Source: Gammaproteobacteria bacterium (lineage in GTDB: Bacteria; Pseudomonadota; Gammaproteobacteria; Competibacterales; Competibacteraceae). From it: a stretch of DNA of 9,267 nt. Each line of letters starts with the position of its first letter. The stretch's first letter is position 1. Position numbers and translations under genes: made by a program. Shown in pieces: positions 91 through 9,267 of this stretch. The stretch spans positions 1-9,267 of the forward strand of contig JAIFNF010000257.1 of NCBI GenBank assembly GCA_020047885.1. Reading direction: 5' to 3'. The notes beneath the pieces are model-generated. The model was not told where the DNA came from and made no database searches. It was given only the letters and a program-made list of their open reading frames with translations.

Positions 91-548
91 AAACGGTCTG
101 GGAGCGCCGCTATTCCGAGAAAGAGCGGATCGGTTTGCAGGTTTATTATCAGTACGAAGATCACGAGGCGCTGCTGGCTCCGTTCCGGTTGGACACAGTC
201 GATGTGGACTTTCAGCACAGTTTCCAGTGGGGCGTGAACTATCGCCACTACCGCGACGAGTTTGATCCCTCCGAATTGATCGTCCTGACCCCGGATTCAC
301 TGTCCGCCGATCTGTTCAGCCTGTTCGCCCAGGATCAGATCGCCTTGTCGGAACGTTGGCAGTTGACGGTCGGCGCCCGCTTGGAGCGGAACGACTACAC
401 CGGCTGGGAATTTCAGCCCAGTGTCCGCCTGCGGTGGAAACCCGATGAGCGCCAACGGGTCTGGGCGGCGGTGTCGCGGGCGGTGCGCACCCCGTCACGA
501 GTCGAGGAAGACGCCCGGATCAATATGGTCACGACACCCCCGGGTGAA
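91..548 (+). pseudogene. TonB-dependent receptor fragment, both ends missing
   Basis: About 150 codons read like the beta-barrel of an outer-membrane TonB-dependent receptor. Alternating aromatic/polar strands include IGLQVYYQYED, WGVNYRHYRDEF, LFAQDQIALSERWQLTVGAR and FQPSVRLRWKP, then WAAVSRAVRTPSR, a typical barrel segment of this family. Intact receptors are about 600-900 residues with an N-terminal signal, TonB box and plug domain, and end in an aromatic residue. All of that is absent. The left break is at the TnpB element end (about 90); the right break lies just after the TTPPG stretch (about 530-548), where the frame continues straight into the YfiR protein. Full-length receptor genes commonly sit upstream of yfiR-like genes, so this is probably the remnant of the original first gene of the operon. 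It cannot form a working receptor. Confidence 0.75.
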
Positions 549-1115
549 ATGGTCGTTTTAGGGCGGCGCTGGCGCATCCGGGTTTGCCGCCTGTTTCTGT
601 GCCTGACGCCGGCCGGATGGCCGCTGACCGCATCGACCCTGTCGGCGGATGAATACGCCATTAAAGCCGCCTATCTGTACAACTTCGCCAAGTGCGTGGA
701 ATGGCCGCCGAAGGCGTTCGCCACATCCAACAATCCGCTGCTGATCTGCGTGATCGGCGATAACCCGTTTGGCGATGCGCTGACCAACTTGCGTGGCAAA
801 CGGGTCGGCCATCACCCGGTGACCGTGCCGGAACTGTCCACCGGTGCGGATGCGCCATGCTGCCATATTGTCTTTATCGCCCGTTCCCAGCAATCCCGCC
901 TGAAAAGCCTGCTGACCACCCTCGGCAGCCGCCCAGTCTTGACGGTCAGCGACATCGAAAATTTTACCCAGGCCGGCGGCATCATCGGCCTGACCGAAGT
1001 CGAGCAGCGCATTCAATTCGTCATCAACGCCGCTGCGGTGCGCCGCGCTGGCCTCACCCTCAGTTCGCAACTACTCAAACTGGCGACAATGGTCGACGAT
1101 AATGGAGGACTTTGA
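549..1115 (+). CDS. yfiR: YfiR family (DUF4154) periplasmic regulator
   Basis: This 188-residue protein carries the YfiR/DUF4154 pattern: [14 protein letters not shown] (residues 40-53), [12 protein letters not shown] (64-75), CHIVFIARS (105-113), PVLTVSD (129-135), [18 protein letters not shown] (143-160) and a C-terminal [13 protein letters not shown]. In Pseudomonas, YfiR is a periplasmic repressor of the CHASE8-type diguanylate cyclase YfiN. Here the gene ends 4 bases before a kinase with a CHASE8-like sensor, its likely partner. The N-terminus (arginine-rich, then a short hydrophobic stretch ending near ASTLSA) looks like a modest signal peptide. Start ATG 549 is the last in-frame ATG before the conserved domain, but it has no good ribosome site, and the frame stays open upstream to GTG 48 through the receptor remnant. 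The native start may therefore have been lost or the product may be a fusion. C67 and C104/C105 may correspond to a disulfide pair of Pseudomonas YfiR. Confidence 0.85.
1104..1109 (+). promoter_or_regulatory. Ribosome binding site for hybrid kinase 1
   Basis: GGAGGA lies 10 bases before ATG 1120. It overlaps an in-frame upstream ATG at 1102, which would have no ribosome site of its own and would add MEDFEF. The site therefore favours the 1120 start. It sits inside the last codons of yfiR, consistent with translational coupling. Confidence 0.7.
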
Positions 1116-1119
1116 ATTC

Positions 1120-4035
1120 ATGTCCGCGTTTGACAATTGGCCGATTAAATACAAACTGATGGCGGTCATGCTGTTGACCAACGTCCTGGTGTTGCTGGCG
1201 GTCGTCGCCGCGCTGGTGATCAATGAGACCTACACCCTGCGGAGCATGACGCGCAATCAACTGTTGACGCTGGCCGACGTGATCGGCGCGAACACGGCGT
1301 CCGCGCTGTTGTTCAGTGACCTCAAAGCCGCCCGAGAAAATCTCGCGGTACTCCGCGCCAAGCCGGATATCCGCTACGCCACCATCGACAGTCCCGATGA
1401 GCAGATTCTGGCGGATTATCACGCGCCGGGTCTGACAGAAGCGGAGCATCAGCAACTACGTCAGAGTGATAACAACCTGGATCGCCAATTTAACCCGGCG
1501 TCTGACGAGCGGGTTTTTAACAGCACGGATGGCCAGATGATGATGGTGAAGTGGCCGATTCAACAGGATGGCCAGTTGCTGGGTTATCTGGAGATGTACT
1601 CGGATATGCGAGAGTTGACCGAGAATCTACACCGCTACTACTGGATTATTGCCGGGTTGTTGGCCGGATCACTGCTGTTGACGACGCTACTGGCCTCCCG
1701 CTTTCAGCAGGTGATTTCCGGGCCGATTCTGCGCTTGCGGCAAGTCATGGATCGGGTCTCCGGTGCCCGCGATTACACCCTTCGTGCGCCCCGCGACAGC
1801 AACGATGAACTGGGGGCGCTGGTCAACGGCTTCAACGAGATGCTGGCGCAAATTCAGCAGCGTGATGCGGATCTCGCCGACTACAACGCCCGGCTGGCGG
1901 CGGAAGTCACGGAGCGCACGGTAGAACTGTCGGCGGCCAATGCCGAATTGCAGGCGCTGGTGCGGGAATTGAGTGAAGCCAAGGAACGCGCCGAGGCCGC
2001 CAGTCGCGCCAAATCCCAATTCCTGGCGAATATGAGCCACGAAATCCGTACCCCGATGAACGGCATTCTGGGCATGGCCGAGTTGCTGCTCGATACGGAA
2101 CTGCACGCCCGGCAGCGGCGCTTTGCGGAATTGATCCAGCAATCCGGCCTGAGCCTGCTGGAGATTATTAACGATATTCTGGACTTCTCGAAGATTGAAG
2201 CGGGTAAGCTGGAATTAACGATTGTTGATTTTGACGCCCGGACCGTGGTTGAAGAAGTTTCAGCGCTCTTCGCGGAAAGTGCGCAGCGCAAGGGTCTGGA
2301 GCTGATTTGCGCCCTGCCGCCACAGTCATTGGCGGCGCGCGGCGATCCGGTGCGGTTGCGGCAGGTGCTGACCAATTTGGTCGGTAACGCCATCAAGTTC
2401 ACCGAACACGGCGAAGTCATGGTCCGGACGTCGGCTCCGCGTCCTACCGAAACCGGGTTTGAGCTACGCTTTGAGGTGCGCGATACCGGCGTCGGCATTC
2501 CCGAATCGGCGCAGGAGCGCATTTTCAACGCCTTCGATCAACTCGACGGTTCATTGACCCGCCGACATGGTGGCACCGGCCTGGGATTGGCGATTGCCCG
2601 GCAGTTGGTGGATCTCATGGGCGGCGAAATTACGCTGCACAGCGTGCAAGGACAAGGTTCCACCTTTGGCTTTACCATCCCGCTGGAACCGTCGAATCAG
2701 CCGCCCAGCCCACTGGAACCTACGGATCATCTGCGCAACGTGCGCATGCTGGTGGTCGATGACAGCGCCACCAACCGTGAAATCCTGCTGCATCAATTAC
2801 AGGCCTGGGGCATACGCGGTGATAGCGCCGCCGGGGGACGGGAGGCGCTGGAACGCTTGCAAATGGCGCAGGCCATGGGCGATCCCTATGAAATCGCCCT
2901 GCTGGATGGCCTGATGCCGGGGCTGACCGGGCCAGAACTGGCGCTGGCTATCCACGAGAAACCGGAATTGCGCGAGACCCAACTGGTGTTGCTCACCTCG
3001 GTCGTCTTTCAGGGTGAGATGCAGGACAAAGCCCGCCAGGCCGGGGTGGTGCATCAGTTATTCAAGCCGGTGCGCCAATCCTTATTGTGGAGTTGCTTGC
3101 GTCAGTTACTGCAACCGTCGCCGTCGGAAGCCACCGAATCGCCTTCCGCCCGTTCGCTGGAAGTGCGGCGACGTGGAGCGCGGGTGTTGGTGGTGGAGGA
3201 CAATCCGGTCAATCAGGAATTAGCCAAGGCTATGCTGACGCAACTCGGTTGTGTGGTTGAGGTCGCGAATCATGGGCGTCAGGCGGTCGACTGGCTGGAG
3301 CACCATTCCTGCGATCTGGTGTTGATGGATTGCCAGATGCCGGTGATGGATGGCTTTCAGGCGGCAGCAGCGATTCGGGAACGGGAAGTGGGCAGGCTGT
3401 CCCGATTGCCCATCGTCGCGCTGACCGCTCATGCCGTGAGTGGGGATCGGGAGCGCTGCCTGGCAGCGGGTATGGACGATTATTTGACCAAGCCCTTTTC
3501 CCAGGAGGGTCTGGTCAAGATGCTGAATCGCTGGCTGCGAACGCCGGTGGTCAGCGTGCCGACCCCTCCCCCCAACCCCCTCCCACAAGGGGAGGGGGAG
3601 CAGCCCAACGCGCTGTTTCACAAAACTCCCTCCCCCCTTGCGGGGGAGGGCGGGGGTGGGGGGGCGGAAGCGTCCATTGAAGCGATTGATCAGCAGGTGC
3701 TGGAGAAGATTCGCATTCTCGAACGCAAGGGTGCGCCGAATCTGGTCGCCCGGCTGATCGGGTTGTATTTGCGCGACGCGCCGAAGTTGATTAGCCAGAT
3801 GAAACAGGCCGTCGCCGAGGAGGATGACGAAATGCTGCTGACCGCGGCGCATACCCTGAAATCGAGTAGCGCCAATGTAGGCGCAACGTCACTGTATGGC
3901 CTGTGCAAGGAACTGGAAGCGCAGGCGCGTCAGCAGGTGGTGGTGAATCCCCAGGAACAGGTCATGGCTATCGAACACCTGTTTATGGCGGCACAGGCCA
4001 TTTTGCGGCGGGAATTACCAACGAGCAGTCAATGA
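1120..4035 (+). CDS. Hybrid sensor kinase: CHASE8-like/HAMP/HK/REC/REC/HPt
   Basis: A 971-residue inner-membrane hybrid kinase. Domains in order: membrane helix 13-34; periplasmic domain about 35-172 resembling CHASE8, the YfiN sensor type ([17 protein letters not shown], then IRYATID); second helix 173-194; HAMP 195-248; coiled coil 250-300; HisKA with H-box [12 protein letters not shown] (phospho-His H307); HATPase with N-box NLVGN (N423), DTGVGI and GGTGLGL; receiver 1 (D547/D548, D596, K649); receiver 2 (E693/D694, D737, T769, K791); and a C-terminal HPt with [11 protein letters not shown] (H911). All phosphotransfer residues are present, so an internal His-Asp-His relay is possible. The linker between receiver 2 and HPt (about 815-849) is encoded by an inserted palindromic repeat. 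Kinase core and receiver 2 closely match the kinase at 4925. Adjacency to yfiR suggests YfiR binds or represses the periplasmic domain (inference). No DNA-binding or GGDEF output is fused. Confidence 0.92.
3561..3665 (+). repeat. GC-rich palindromic repeat inserted in kinase 1 coding sequence
   Basis: The two halves are inverted relative to each other: a C-run arm at 3561-3584 (CCCCTCCCCCCAACCCCC core) pairs with a G-run arm at about 3642-3665. Each half also folds locally: CCCCTCCC/GGGGAGGGG at about 3577-3598 and CCCTCCCCCC/GGGGGAGGG at about 3628-3650. Translated, it gives [10 protein letters not shown] and [13 protein letters not shown]. These strings are familiar to me from translations of dispersed palindromic repeats in many proteobacterial genomes, usually found between genes. 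Here it is in frame and has no stop codon. It falls in a flexible linker, which explains why it is tolerated. Confidence 0.75.
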
Positions 4036-4924: not shown

Positions 4925-6991
4925 ATGACTTCCCGCGACGACCAGATTGCCTCGATCATCAACCGGACGGCGCTGATTGTGGCGCTGCTGGTGACCCTCG
5001 CCCTGCCACTCGGCTACGGCATGGTCGCCTTCAACGACCTCAGCGCCGCCCTGGCGTTCAAGGCGCGGGTCAAGGCGACCGCCTTCAGTACGCTGATTAC
5101 CGGCAATCCCGAGTTGTGGATGTACGCCGAAAATCGGATGCAGGGGCTGTTGATGCGCGAACCGGTCCCGCTGGAAACGGAATGGGCGCAGGTTTATGAC
5201 GAGCAGGGCGTACTGATTACGCAAACCGGCCAACCGCCCGCGTCGCCACTATTGAGCCGGAGTTATCCCCTGTACGACGCTACGCGCATCGCCGGCCGTA
5301 TTGAGGTCAGCGACTCCTTGCGCAGCCTGATCCAGGGCGCGGTCATCGCCACGTTGATCGGTCTCGCGCTGGGTGCCTCGGTATTCATGGCCTTCAGGGT
5401 CGTCTCCCTGCGGGCGCTGCGGCGGGTGACGCAAGCGCTGGTCAACAGTGAAACGGCCTACCGAAATCTCGTCGAATTATCCCCCGATGCGCTGTGCATC
5501 AGTTGCGACGAAAAAATTGTGTACCTCAACGCCGCCGCCGTCCGCCTGGTCGGGGCGGATTCCCTGGACGCGCTGCTGGGTACTTCCATTTGGGACTATC
5601 TGCATCCCAAAGCTCGGATCCGGGTTCGGGAACGGTTGGGGGACATTTTGGCCGAACAGTGCGCCGCGCCCTTTCTGGAAGAACGCTGTCTGCGGCGCGA
5701 CGGCACGGTTTTTCCGGTGGAAATCGCCGCCGCCCCGTTTATTTACAACGGACGCCCGGCGCTGCAGATCATCGTCCACGATCTGACCGAGCGGAAGCGC
5801 ATGGAAGAAGCCCGTCAGGCGCGGGACGCTGCCGAGGCGGCCAGTCAGGCCAAGTCGCGGTTTCTGGCGAATATGAGCCATGAAATCCGCACCCCGATGA
5901 ATGGCGTTCTCGGCATGACCGAGTTGTTGCTGAATACCGAATTGCACCCCAGTCAGCGGCGCTTTGCTGAATTGATCCAGCAATCTGGCCGCAGTTTGCT
6001 GGAGATCATCAATGACATTCTGGATTTTTCCCGGATTGAAGCCGGCAAGCTGGAACTGAATCGCGTCGATTTTGACATCCGCCGGGTGGTGCAGGACATC
6101 GCCGGGCTGTTTGCCGAGCATGCCCAGCGCAAGGGTCTGGAACTGATCTGTGCGCTGCCGCCGCAGTCGTTGGCGGTCCAGGGCGATCCGGTGCGGCTGC
6201 GTCAGGTGCTGACTAACCTAGTCGGCAACGCCCTCAAATTCACCGAGCGGGGTGAAGTGATGATCCGGGTCGCTGCGCCGCGTCTCACCGCAACCGGCCT
6301 CGAGGTGCGCTTTGAAGTGCGTGATACTGGGGCGGGCATTGCCGAAGCCGCGCAGGAGCGGATTTTCAATGCCTTCGATCAGGCCGACAACTCCCTGACT
6401 CGTCGGCATGGCGGTACCGGGCTGGGTCTGGCCATCGCCCGGCAACTGGTGGGATTGATGGGCGGGGCGCTGACCGTGCAGAGTCGGGCCGGGCAGGGCG
6501 CGACATTTCACTTTACCCTGCCGCTGCGCCCGGCGATTGACGCCGTGGCCTCAGTCCGGCGGCCGCCCGATCCGGAGCCGCCCCTACTGGCGCGACCGGG
6601 TGCCCGAGTGTTGCTGGTCGAGGATAATGCCGTGAATCAGGAATTGGCTCAGGTGATGCTGATCCAGCTCGGCTGTATCGTGACGGTCGCCCAACATGGA
6701 CGGGAAGCCCTCAACTGGTTGGAGCACCAGACCTGCGATCTGGTGCTCATGGACTGTCAGATGCCGGTCATGGACGGCTTTCAGGCGACGGCGCTGATTC
6801 GCCGGCGGGAACAGCGCGAAGCCATGACCACCCGGTTGCCCGTCGTAGCGCTAACCGCTCATGCGGTCAGTGGCGACCGGGAACGCTGTCTGGCGGCGGG
6901 TATGGATGATTATCTGAGTAAACCCTTTTCGCAGGAGGCACTGGTGAATGTACTGAATCGCTGGTTGCCCACCCCCCACCAAAACGGTTAG
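4925..6991 (+). CDS. Hybrid sensor kinase: periplasmic sensor/PAS/HK/REC
   Basis: A 688-residue membrane hybrid kinase. Helix 1 is about 16-38, a small extracytoplasmic domain is about 39-135 (ending [20 protein letters not shown]), and helix 2 is about 136-158. These are followed by PAS (173-290, [12 protein letters not shown] to [10 protein letters not shown]), a short coiled coil, HisKA with [12 protein letters not shown] (H319), HATPase (N435, DTGAGI, GGTGLGL) and one receiver (E566/D567, D610, T644, K666). It stops right after the receiver and has no HPt, so phosphate from D610 must go to a separate HPt; the HPt domains of the kinases at 1120 and 7002 are candidates. Kinase core and receiver are close copies of those in the 1120 kinase. 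The start ATG 4925 has no clear Shine-Dalgarno, but later starts would cut into the first helix. It lies 21 bases after the binding-protein gene, so translational coupling is likely and that protein may be its ligand receptor (inference). Confidence 0.9.
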
Positions 6992-7001
6992 AGGCGATAG
7001 C

Positions 7002-8978
7002 ATGATGGATGACGACCAGAAACCGCCTTGTGTGCTGGTGGTAGATGACGACGATGGACAGCGCCTGTTGGCCAGCGTCGCCCTGATGCAGGCTGGATTT
7101 TCGGTGTGGGAAGTCGCCAGTGGCGAACAGGCGCTGCGTCGGTGTGCCGAGGAATGGCCGGATATCGTGTTGCTCGATGTGGTCATGCCGGGTCTGGATG
7201 GGTTCACGGTTTGCGAGAGGCTTCGGCAACAGCCGGGCGGGGCGCATGTGGCGATTTTGATGGTCACCGGCCTCGATGATCTGGACTCCATCGAACGGGC
7301 TTACCGGGTCGGGGCGACCGATTTCATTACCAAGCCCATTCAGTGGCTGATCCTGCATCAGCGGGTGCGGTATATCCTGCGCGCCAGCCAGGCGTTTCAG
7401 GCCTTGCGGGAACGGGAACAGGCGTTGATTCAGGCCAAGCGGCAGGCGGAACTGGCCAGTCAGGCCAAGTCGGATTTCCTGTCGATGATGAGTCACGAAT
7501 TGCGCTCGCCGATGACCGGCATTCTCGGGGCGCTCAGTCTCCTGTTGCAAACGCCACTGGAGGCGGAGCAGGGACAGTATGCGCACATTGCCCACGATTC
7601 GGCGCGTTCGCTGCTGGCGATCCTCAATGACATCCTGGATATGGCCAAGCTGGAGGCGGGTCGGATGACCATTGAAGATCTTGATATTACGATTGACCCG
7701 GTGATCGACGAGGTGGTGCACCTTATGGCGGCACCGGCGACCGAGAAGGGGCTATGCCTGGTCGTCAACCGGGACTCAGCCATTCCGCCTGAGTTGCGCG
7801 GGGATGCCGTGCGTATTCGCCAAATCCTGTTAAATCTGGTGAGCAATGCGGTCAAGTTTACCCACCGCGGCGCGATTACCGTTGACGTCGCCTATGAACC
7901 GGAAGCGTCTCGGTTGAAGATCGCGGTCACTGACACCGGGATCGGCATTCCGCCGGACGTTCAGCAGCGCCTGTTTACCCGCTTCACTCAGGCGGACAGC
8001 TCGATCAGCCGCAACTACGGCGGCACTGGGCTGGGCCTGGCGATTTGCAAACAGCTTTGTGAATTGATGGGCGGCGACATTGGCTTGCACAGTACGCCCG
8101 GCGAGGGCAGCACGTTCTGGTTCACGGTTCACTGTCCACCCGGCGCTGTCGATCAGGTGAATGACCGCATCGGCTCAGTCGCCCAGACCGACACCGCCAT
8201 GACCCAACCGTTGCACATTCTGCTGGCCGAAGACAGCCCGATTAACCAGGTCATCATCAAGGCGATTCTGATCAAGGCGGGACATACGCTGGAAATCGCC
8301 AATAATGGCCGGGAAGCGGTGGACGCCGCTGCGCGTACCCATCTCGATCTGATTCTGATGGATGTGCAGATGCCGGAGATGAACGGGGTCAGCGCCACGC
8401 AGGCCATTCGCGCCTTGCCACCGCCGCACTGTAGGGTGCCGATTATTGCGCTGACCGCCAACGCCATGCGCGAGCAACAGGGGCAATATCTGGCGGCAGG
8501 TATGGATGATTATGTGAGCAAACCCTTTACCGAAGACGCCTTGCTCAGCGCTATCGCCCGGCGTCACGCCGCTCGCCCGGTCGCGGGAGAGGCGTCCGCC
8601 GAGAGCGCCCACTGGGAGGCGATTAGCCTGTTCGATGCAGTCCAGATCGAGGGGATTCGCGCATCGGTGGGTGAAGAAGCGTTCCGCAGTCTCCTGGAAG
8701 AATTTGTGAATGCGATCGCCGAAAACATCGACCAGTTACGCCACGCCTGGCGAGATGCCGATACCGAGCAGATCGGCAAGATTACGCATCGGCTGAAAGG
8801 TGAAGCCGGTACGCTGGGCATTGCGCGGATTGCCGCTATTGCCAAGTTCCTGAACACCACTGAATCTGCTGACATCGGCCAGGCGGTTCAAGCACTGGAA
8901 CAGGCTTATCGGGAAACCGTGGCCGCTATTCCGGCGCTGAATGCGGCGCATCCGTCAACGGGCAAAGCTGACTCATGA
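7002..8978 (+). CDS. Soluble hybrid kinase: REC/HK/REC/HPt
   Basis: A 658-residue protein with no membrane helix or signal peptide, so cytoplasmic. Order: receiver 1 (D15/D16, D59, T89, K111), coiled linker (about 118-155), HisKA with MSHELRSP (H165), HATPase (N-box NLVSN with N282, DTGIGI, GGTGLGL), receiver 2 (E410/D411, D454, T485, K507) and C-terminal HPt with [12 protein letters not shown] (H596). An N-terminal receiver before the kinase core means its kinase activity is probably set by phosphorylation from another protein, plausibly the two membrane kinases upstream. The H-box differs (HELRSP against HEIRTP), so it is not a recent copy of those two. Start ATG 7002 is preceded by GAGG at 6991-6994, 7 bases away; ATG 7005 is an alternative. 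It begins 10 bases after the previous stop, so it is co-transcribed. Its last 53 bases overlap the opposing receiver remnant. Confidence 0.9.
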
Positions 8979-9200
8979 CCTCCAGCAGGTTGTCGGGATT
9001 GACCGGCTTGGTCATCCAGGCGCTGAGTCCCGCCGAGCGGGCTTTTTCGCGCACCTCGTGGTGGGTGTCCGCGGTAATCATAATAATCGGTGTCTGACCA
9101 TAGGCGGGCATTGCGCGAACTTTTGTCACCAGGGTCAGGCCATCCATGTTATCCATGTGGTAGTCAACAATCAGGCCGTCATCAGATTTTCCGCGAGAGA
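8926..9200 (-). pseudogene. Response regulator receiver domain, C-terminal remnant
   Basis: Read on the minus strand, the frame gives DGLIVDYHMDNMDG, then TPIIMITAD, SAGLSAWMTKPV and LLEVMSQL, ending at a TAG (8928-8926). These are the second half of a CheY-like receiver: phosphoacceptor Asp in VDYHMD, the conserved Thr in MITAD and Lys in MTKPV. The first strand with the acidic pair, about 45-50 residues, is missing. Upstream the frame runs without a domain match into the GC hairpin at 9201-9220, so the gene is probably truncated by the mobile-element end there. The first internal ATG (9156-9154) is not a credible native start, since it lies after the phosphoacceptor. It converges on, and overlaps by 53 bases, the kinase at 7002. 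Its neighbourhood suggests it was the regulator partner of this kinase cluster, or a domain of a larger protein; the remnant alone could not work. Confidence 0.7.
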
Positions 9201-9220
9201 CCCCGGCCTTCAGGCCGGGG
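9201..9220. mobile_element. GC hairpin resembling an IS200/IS605-type end
   Basis: CCCCGGCCT and AGGCCGGGG form a perfect 9-base inverted repeat around TC, followed by AGGGATAGCG. The layout matches the left-hand element end at 61-80: both are CCCCG-CCTT-AGG-CGGGG followed by AGG. No TnpB C-terminus lies beside it inside the window, so it may be the end of an element extending to the right, a non-autonomous derivative, or a solo remnant. Orientation is undetermined because the hairpin is symmetric. It marks the break point of the receiver remnant. Confidence 0.5.
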
Positions 9221-9231
9221 AGGGATAGCGG

Positions 9232-9248
9232 GCCGAACGAAGTTCGGC
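9232..9248. repeat. Second small inverted repeat near the right edge
   Basis: GCCGAAC and GTTCGGC form a perfect 7-base stem around GAA, 11 bases after the hairpin at 9201-9220. It is followed by GGCCTTTGGG, not a T-run, so it is a poor intrinsic terminator. It may be part of the same mobile-element end; the window stops too soon to tell. Confidence 0.4.
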
Positions 9249-9267
9249 GGCCTTTGGGTTGGGTTGT

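Follow-up and report, generated by a model that had tools for sequence, protein, structure and literature searches.

What does a YfiR-like protein control when the gene beside it encodes a histidine kinase? This question is posed by a 9,267-nucleotide stretch of a Competibacteraceae genome (Gammaproteobacteria; assembly GCA_020047885.1, contig JAIFNF010000257.1; hereafter the window, meaning the whole stretch that was analysed), in which a yfiR-like gene of the DUF4154 family (549..1115, plus strand) precedes a gene for a hybrid sensor kinase (1120..4035, plus strand). We think it probable that the two genes belong to a widespread envelope-signalling module, composed of a TonB-dependent receptor, YfiR and a CHASE8 sensor, in which YfiR would dock near residue Phe65 of the sensor and the kinase would relay phosphate to a separate regulator. 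The domains, the gene order and the conservation on which this proposal draws are observed.

A YfiR-like gene directly ahead of a CHASE8 hybrid kinase

The 188-residue YfiR-like protein matches PF13689 at 157.3 bits (E 3.5e-46; gathering cut-off 24.9), passes the NCBIfam model for the TOL_0243 family of YfiR-like proteins (NF053591; 145.8 bits against a cut-off of 125) and matches the YfiR structure 4zhu in the Protein Data Bank (PDB; E 4.7e-9). It does not reach the classic YfiR model NF053586 (41.6 against 85 bits). Its N-terminus resembles a signal peptide by eye, and the start at ATG 549 is supported by the closest relative, a Pseudomonadota metagenome bin (L001), where the stop codon (TAG) of an upstream receptor gene overlaps the same yfiR ATG by 13 bases. 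The YfiR of Pseudomonas aeruginosa has two cysteine pairs, Cys71-Cys110 and Cys145-Cys152, according to passages of PMC4887326. Only the first has counterparts in the window protein (Cys67 and Cys105), and among 123 CHASE8-adjacent YfiRs these positions are cysteine in 100 and 117, respectively. The window residue Phe157, which aligns with P. aeruginosa Phe162, was tried as a marker of CHASE8 adjacency and set aside for its poor separation (phenylalanine in 102/123 adjacent YfiRs versus 15/25 others).

The most likely start of the kinase is ATG 1120, which follows a GGAGG at 1104-1108 (noted by eye) and fits the 971 residues of the protein's database entry (P0121); the reading frame is open from ATG 1102 too. 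With this start, the gap to the yfiR stop, which ends at 1115, is 4 bases. The CHASE8 profile PF17152 matches kinase residues 41-158 (1240..1593, plus strand) at 52.6 bits (E 5.8e-14; cut-off 27), and HAMP, HisKA, HATPase_c, two Response_reg and Hpt domains each score above their Pfam cut-offs. Motif positions place the phospho-acceptors at His307 of HisKA (2038..2040), Asp596 of the first receiver (2905..2907), Asp737 of the second receiver (3328..3330) and His911 of the histidine phosphotransfer (HPt) domain (3850..3852), and all four are present. An earlier note on this DNA had proposed the 4-base spacing, a CHASE8-like region within kinase residues 35-172 and a HisKA-HATPase-REC-REC-HPt output (REC, receiver); these proposals are borne out.

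An AlphaFold2 model of kinase residues 1-265 has a mean predicted local distance difference test score of 94.6 and gives the periplasmic sensor an extracytoplasmic PAS/CACHE-type fold that matches WalK, CitA and LuxQ; a sequence search of the PDB with the sensor region returned no matches up to E 10. The L001 kinase is 85% identical in the sensor part, and codon comparison with L001 indicates purifying selection on yfiR (w 0.24), the sensor (w 0.14) and the kinase core (w 0.12). The binding-protein row of this comparison was out of frame and is left out.

The gene order recurs among relatives

Species genomes scanned with a YfiR alignment gave 204 relatives, of which the best 80 loci were retained. 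In 78 of the 80 (the exceptions are L018 and L020) the gene immediately 3' of yfiR, on the same strand, encodes a CHASE8 sensor, which is more than chance. These 78 comprise 68 kinases, 3 GGDEF proteins, 5 genes cut by a contig end and 2 that are unclear. A TonB-dependent receptor gene lies within 400 bases 5' of yfiR in 57 of the 80 loci, is absent from 20 and could not have been seen in 3 that lack room. Record titles include Competibacteraceae, Acidobacteria, Verrucomicrobia, Phycisphaerae, Pirellulales, Desulfobacteraceae, Geomonas, Methylomonas and Hahella, mostly as metagenome bins. Geomonas limicola carries a whole receptor gene next to yfiR, and in Methylomonas sp. LW13 the kinase gene is followed by one for a GGDEF protein.

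Because this set was found with patterns from close relatives, it is biased to this subfamily, and we therefore drew 274 genomes from the class of the Thiocystis violacea genome (G003, locus L077). PF13689 is present in 39 of them, at 71 places over cut-off; 65 regions cover 68 of these, with the fragments G168:C128, G247:C416 and G072:C60 left out. An overlap filter dropped two further yfiR genes from the count (L175 and L208, each preceded by a receptor and followed by a CHASE8 kinase). The gene following yfiR encodes a CHASE8 protein in 42 of the remaining 66 cases: a kinase in 31, a kinase-GGDEF protein in 1, a GGDEF protein in 9 and a cut CHASE8 protein in 1. The other cases are a TonB receptor (8), a GGDEF protein without CHASE8 (1) and other genes, nothing close or a contig end (15). 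At L197 and L205 a CHASE8-GGDEF gene stands in the same gene run, not directly after yfiR, and falls outside the 9. Viewed from the sensor, yfiR adjoins 45 of 76 CHASE8 genes, in 44 cases on the 5' side.

A TonB receptor precedes yfiR in 31 of the 66 class-draw cases, in 16 of which a CHASE8 kinase also follows. Such receptors are few, with 112 matches (110 over cut-off) in 10 class-draw genomes totalling 38.7 Mb. Among 30 chosen receptors, a Pfam check found the Plug domain in all 30 and the barrel in 29, and 28 match the TOL_0244 receptor model NF053590 at E <= 1e-20; no STN domain was reported in these 30 at E <= 1e-5. The samples overlap, at least in that L147 of the class draw is the same gene as L077 and L262 of a second draw, described below, is the same gene as L042.

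Several loci depart from the common arrangement. At L012 (3398-13368) and L014 (1342-13371), a CHASE8-GGDEF gene and a CHASE8 kinase gene flank a stretch with two TonB receptors and two yfiR genes, so that outputs of both kinds share one neighbourhood. At L210 (2871-5591, minus strand), a 906-residue protein has a YfiR domain at its N-terminus and a histidine kinase at its C-terminus, with a long coiled coil, one membrane helix, a PAS domain and a receiver recognizable by eye; YfiR is here apparently built in as the kinase's own sensor, an arrangement that is topologically sensible. An open reading frame that joins YfiR to a CHASE8 kinase (P0210) was not taken to show a fusion, since a signal peptide ahead of YfiR and the first transmembrane helix (TM1) ahead of CHASE8 would not allow both parts to be periplasmic; a lost stop or an assembly error is likelier. 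L162 (4962-6278, minus strand) encodes a 438-residue protein with apparently two tandem YfiR-like domains (143.8 bits, and 24.1 bits, just below cut-off). At L156, L166, L172, L177, L181, L199 and L203, yfiR lies beside TonB receptors with no adjoining CHASE8 gene, and genomes G040 and G191 each hold more than one such yfiR-receptor pair without CHASE8.

Relation to known Yfi systems

The pairing of YfiR with a CHASE8 kinase is already known and widespread. Passages of Malone 2012 (PMC3375315) report that divergent Yfi systems almost always lack YfiB and often replace GGDEF with GGDEF-EAL, HPt or sensor kinases; like the window, these systems combine YfiR with an adjacent YfiN-like sensor half whose output is a histidine or hybrid kinase, mostly with no YfiB. 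Sections 8 and 12 and further passages of that paper describe no TonB-dependent receptor or receiver-GGDEF gene, and in a full-text search it was not among the five open-access PubMed Central papers that name both YfiR and TonB. The same open-access collection yielded no paper in which DUF4154 occurs together with "histidine kinase".

NCBIfam release 20 contains consecutive models for the TOL_0244 receptor (NF053590), the TOL_0243 YfiR-like protein (NF053591) and a kinase near YfiR-like proteins (NF053592), from which we infer that curators have seen a receptor-YfiR-kinase cluster. The window has the same three kinds of gene and differs in that its receptor is a remnant and its kinase falls just under the cut-off of NF053592 (177.9 against 194 bits). 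That model was passed by 2 of 8 other yfiR-adjacent CHASE8 proteins (195.1 and 217.5 bits), the higher score belonging to a GGDEF/EAL-type protein.

With the YfiBNR/HmsCD systems of P. aeruginosa, Escherichia coli and Yersinia pestis the window shares the YfiR family, the CHASE8-HAMP input half, the phenylalanine of the AAVVF motif and one cysteine pair, whereas it has a kinase in place of GGDEF and lacks the second YfiR cysteine pair. The OmpA-like lipoprotein YfiB had no match in the seven window sequences scanned. LuxP-LuxQ is comparable in how it would work and not a system to which the window belongs; YfiR is not known to be related to LuxP.

A phenylalanine at the proposed YfiR-binding site recurs in yfiR-adjacent sensors

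Passages of Malone 2012 propose that the binding site for YfiR on YfiN is an AAVVF motif, the phenylalanine of which is exposed (PMC3375315). The E. coli protein DgcN carries EAAVVF, and its phenylalanine aligns with Phe65 of the window kinase (codon at 1312..1314, plus strand). The pairing suggested by the earlier note, of YfiR with a CHASE8 sensor that bears a phosphorelay kinase, is found with the proposed YfiR-binding residue kept. In the model, Phe65 directly follows a long helix (residues 9-64) that begins in TM1, and we read it as the membrane-distal end of the sensor.

Phe65 is retained in all 75 yfiR-adjacent sensors of the 80-locus set that are longer than 250 residues and in all 44 of the class draw, in kinases and GGDEF proteins alike, with a mild circularity in the latter count, as these sensors were picked with a profile from the 80 loci that included column 65. 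Of the 31 class-draw CHASE8 proteins without an adjacent yfiR, defined by the lack of a same-strand PF13689 place over cut-off within 1500 bases, 12 have it, and so do 3 of 17 from genomes in which no yfiR was found. Some of the non-adjacent group have a yfiR 1.7-3 kb away (L214, L228, L267 and L279) or lie near a contig end. Column 65 shows the largest difference between adjacent and non-adjacent proteins across the 265-residue sensor half, and in a 91-sequence alignment of adjacent sensors the only invariant columns are column 65 and one HAMP glutamate. Judging by these sequence patterns, YfiR likely contacts the sensor of this kinase.

The Phe65 pattern bears on a rival explanation in which YfiR is co-transcribed with the kinase and serves mainly the TonB receptor, for example as a periplasmic ligand carrier, while CHASE8 senses a small molecule itself. 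Some class-draw yfiR genes would suit such a role, as 5 of 66 have a receptor before and nothing close after and 8 of 66 have a receptor directly after. The sensor's PAS/CACHE-type fold is like that of the citrate sensor CitA, and P. aeruginosa YfiR binds vitamin B6 and tryptophan, as passages of PMC4887326 report. It is harder to see on this account why Phe65 should be invariant beside yfiR in the class draw and much less so elsewhere, and passages of Malone 2012 report that YfiR represses YfiN genetically in P. aeruginosa (PMC3375315). We consider this explanation unlikely.

The phosphorelay may lead back to cyclic di-GMP

Where would the relay lead? In the class draw, the gene directly after the CHASE8 kinase encodes a GGDEF protein at 11 of the 27 loci with a visible next gene. 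A domain scan of 10 of these (the gene of L165, cut by the region end, was left out) found GGDEF in 10, a receiver in 9 and EAL in 9. The 80-locus set gives a GGDEF gene next after the kinase in 18 of the 59 loci with room to see it, and 10 proteins chosen from this set all have a receiver and GGDEF, 8 of them also EAL (one, from L077, is the same gene as one in the class-draw scan). With a receiver-GGDEF(-EAL) protein so often encoded next door, the relay may still end in cyclic di-GMP (c-di-GMP); in many relatives, a phosphorelay has probably been inserted between a YfiR-controlled sensor and a c-di-GMP enzyme.

These neighbours also bear on the earlier note's view that a YfiN-type switch has been rewired from c-di-GMP synthesis to His-Asp signalling, with an output free of c-di-GMP. 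The kinase itself lacks GGDEF, and a Pfam scan of the seven window sequences returned no GGDEF match, as such rewiring would predict. Kinases are, however, the commoner yfiR partner in the class draw (32 versus 9 of 66), so GGDEF need not be the ancestral output and no direction of change is apparent. Nor is it generally true that the kinase takes the place of a diguanylate cyclase, given how often a receiver-GGDEF protein is the next gene. Rewiring away from c-di-GMP seems to us improbable.

A receptor-gene remnant upstream

Directly upstream of yfiR lies a remnant of a TonB-dependent receptor gene (93..548, plus strand) that covers part of the beta-barrel (PF00593, 64.2 bits); the earlier note makes no mention of it. 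L001 has a whole receptor of 674 residues, just below the NF053590 cut-off (615 against 645), and its gene is followed by yfiR, by the same kinase gene and by genes for a PstS-like binding protein and a further kinase. Alignment by blastn pairs window positions 91-543 with L001 6438-6914 and 543-586 with L001 7558-7601. Relative to L001, the window gene lacks about 890 bases of the 5' part and about 640 bases of the 3' part; positions 1-90 hold other sequence where the 5' part would be, and the stretch with the last receptor codons (KWSF-stop in L001) is retained, overlapping the yfiR start. The receptor gene of the window is broken or wrongly assembled. As the remaining codons still look constrained relative to L001 (w 0.08), its loss would be recent or an assembly error. 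That the whole locus is decaying, with a YfiR-kinase pair that no longer works beside a receptor already missing its 5' and 3' parts, is highly improbable, as yfiR and the kinase gene are open, the phospho-acceptors and Phe65 are kept and w is 0.12-0.24 relative to L001.

A possible route across the envelope

The receptor-YfiR-CHASE8 proposal can be put as a sequence of steps. Exported YfiR would dock around Phe65, at the end of the CHASE8 domain that lies away from the membrane, and keep the kinase in a single signalling state, which by comparison with YfiN is probably the off state. YfiR binding would be altered by a signal from the envelope, probably relayed by the outer-membrane receptor in relatives where that receptor is intact; the redox state may be a further input through the Cys67-Cys105 pair. 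The change in binding would pass through the second transmembrane helix and HAMP to HisKA, and phosphate would then move from His307 through Asp596 and Asp737 to His911, from which a separate response regulator would receive it. This regulator could, in many relatives, be the receiver-GGDEF(-EAL) protein encoded next door, and the relay there probably ends in c-di-GMP.

Several results weigh against this proposal. No intact TonB-dependent receptor lies upstream of the window yfiR, where the remnant at 93-548 is all that is found, and no regulator or output protein was seen 3' of the kinase within the window. In the class draw, 24 of 66 yfiR genes lack a CHASE8 gene after them and 31 of 76 CHASE8 genes stand without a neighbouring yfiR. 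A second draw of 119 genomes, from the phylum of the genome (G064) that holds the acidobacterial locus L042, has yfiR beside 30 of 43 CHASE8 genes and gives a weaker Phe65 contrast (29/30 adjacent versus 9/13 non-adjacent; Fisher p 0.024, with one doubtful alignment row, L284); column 65 is outside the ten most different columns there. When the association of Phe65 with adjacency is corrected for the tree, it does not reach significance (p 0.06-0.25): only 7 pairs are supported, of which usually 4-5 speak for it and 0 against, on a quick tree with several doubtful long-branch joins. The structure prediction of the YfiR-sensor pair that the earlier note had asked for, made as a read-through of the two genes, folded both parts well and gave no confident placement of YfiR against the sensor (predicted template modelling score 0.53).

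A broader reading is that across bacteria YfiR is mainly a periplasmic relay of TonB receptors that lack STN: a ligand would alter YfiR and so free CHASE8 sensors near Phe65, with kinases, GGDEF proteins and pairs of a kinase with a receiver-GGDEF protein as interchangeable outputs and with the Pseudomonas YfiB as a receptor substitute. We offer this as a real but tentative possibility. Passages of PMC6304351 report that the founder receptor, TOL_0244 of Thalassolituus, is 40.3% similar to OmpS, an alkane receptor of Alcanivorax, and rises sevenfold on the n-C28 alkane relative to Tween 80; given this response and likeness, the relay could be how such receptors signal inward. A full-text search of PMC6304351 did not find the word YfiR.

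If conserved over many phyla, the receptor-YfiR-CHASE8 arrangement would be a second TonB-receptor signalling route beside FecA-FecR, from which it differs in the absence of STN from the checked receptors and in having YfiR and a kinase where the other route has an anti-sigma factor. Most of the interest lies outside the window pair, in a possible trans-envelope route with interchangeable outputs. The wider module, if true, gives YfiR a testable input, and the Phe65 result offers one residue to test.

Other genes and the ends of the window

Downstream of the CHASE8 kinase, the window encodes a PstS-like periplasmic binding protein (PF12849; 4076-4903), a second membrane kinase with PAS, HisKA, HATPase and one REC domain (4925-6991), a receiver-kinase-receiver-HPt protein (7002-8978) and, convergently, a receiver fragment (8926-9267, minus strand) that overlaps the 3' end of the preceding gene. 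A Pfam scan found an output domain in none of the window's three kinases or the receiver fragment. The PstS-like gene lies directly 5' of the PAS kinase gene, a second pair of a periplasmic protein and a kinase in the window; both are also found in L001, where the binding protein lacks about 100 codons. The two membrane kinases are paralogues, with stretches of the core and last receiver of each sharing 77-78% DNA identity with the other kinase of L001 (window 1989-2685, 3168-3515, 5831-6516 and 6599-6968), and it seems from these stretches that one kinase core was duplicated under two sensors.

No Rfam family matched across the window at gathering scores, and a repeat search of both ends of the window and of the kinase linker reported none. 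This linker, which joins the second receiver to HPt, contains (3550-3675) a G+C-rich stretch that is translated in frame and absent from the relative P0122; by eye, the stretch looks like a repetitive element inserted within a coding gene. G+C-rich short palindromes lie at 1-92 and 9190-9240 (CCCCGTCCTTTAGGGCGGGG; CCCCGGCCTTCAGGCCGGGG), which we take to resemble the ends of IS200/IS605-type elements. One of them adjoins the broken receptor gene, and the other adjoins the receiver gene, whose domain is cut there.

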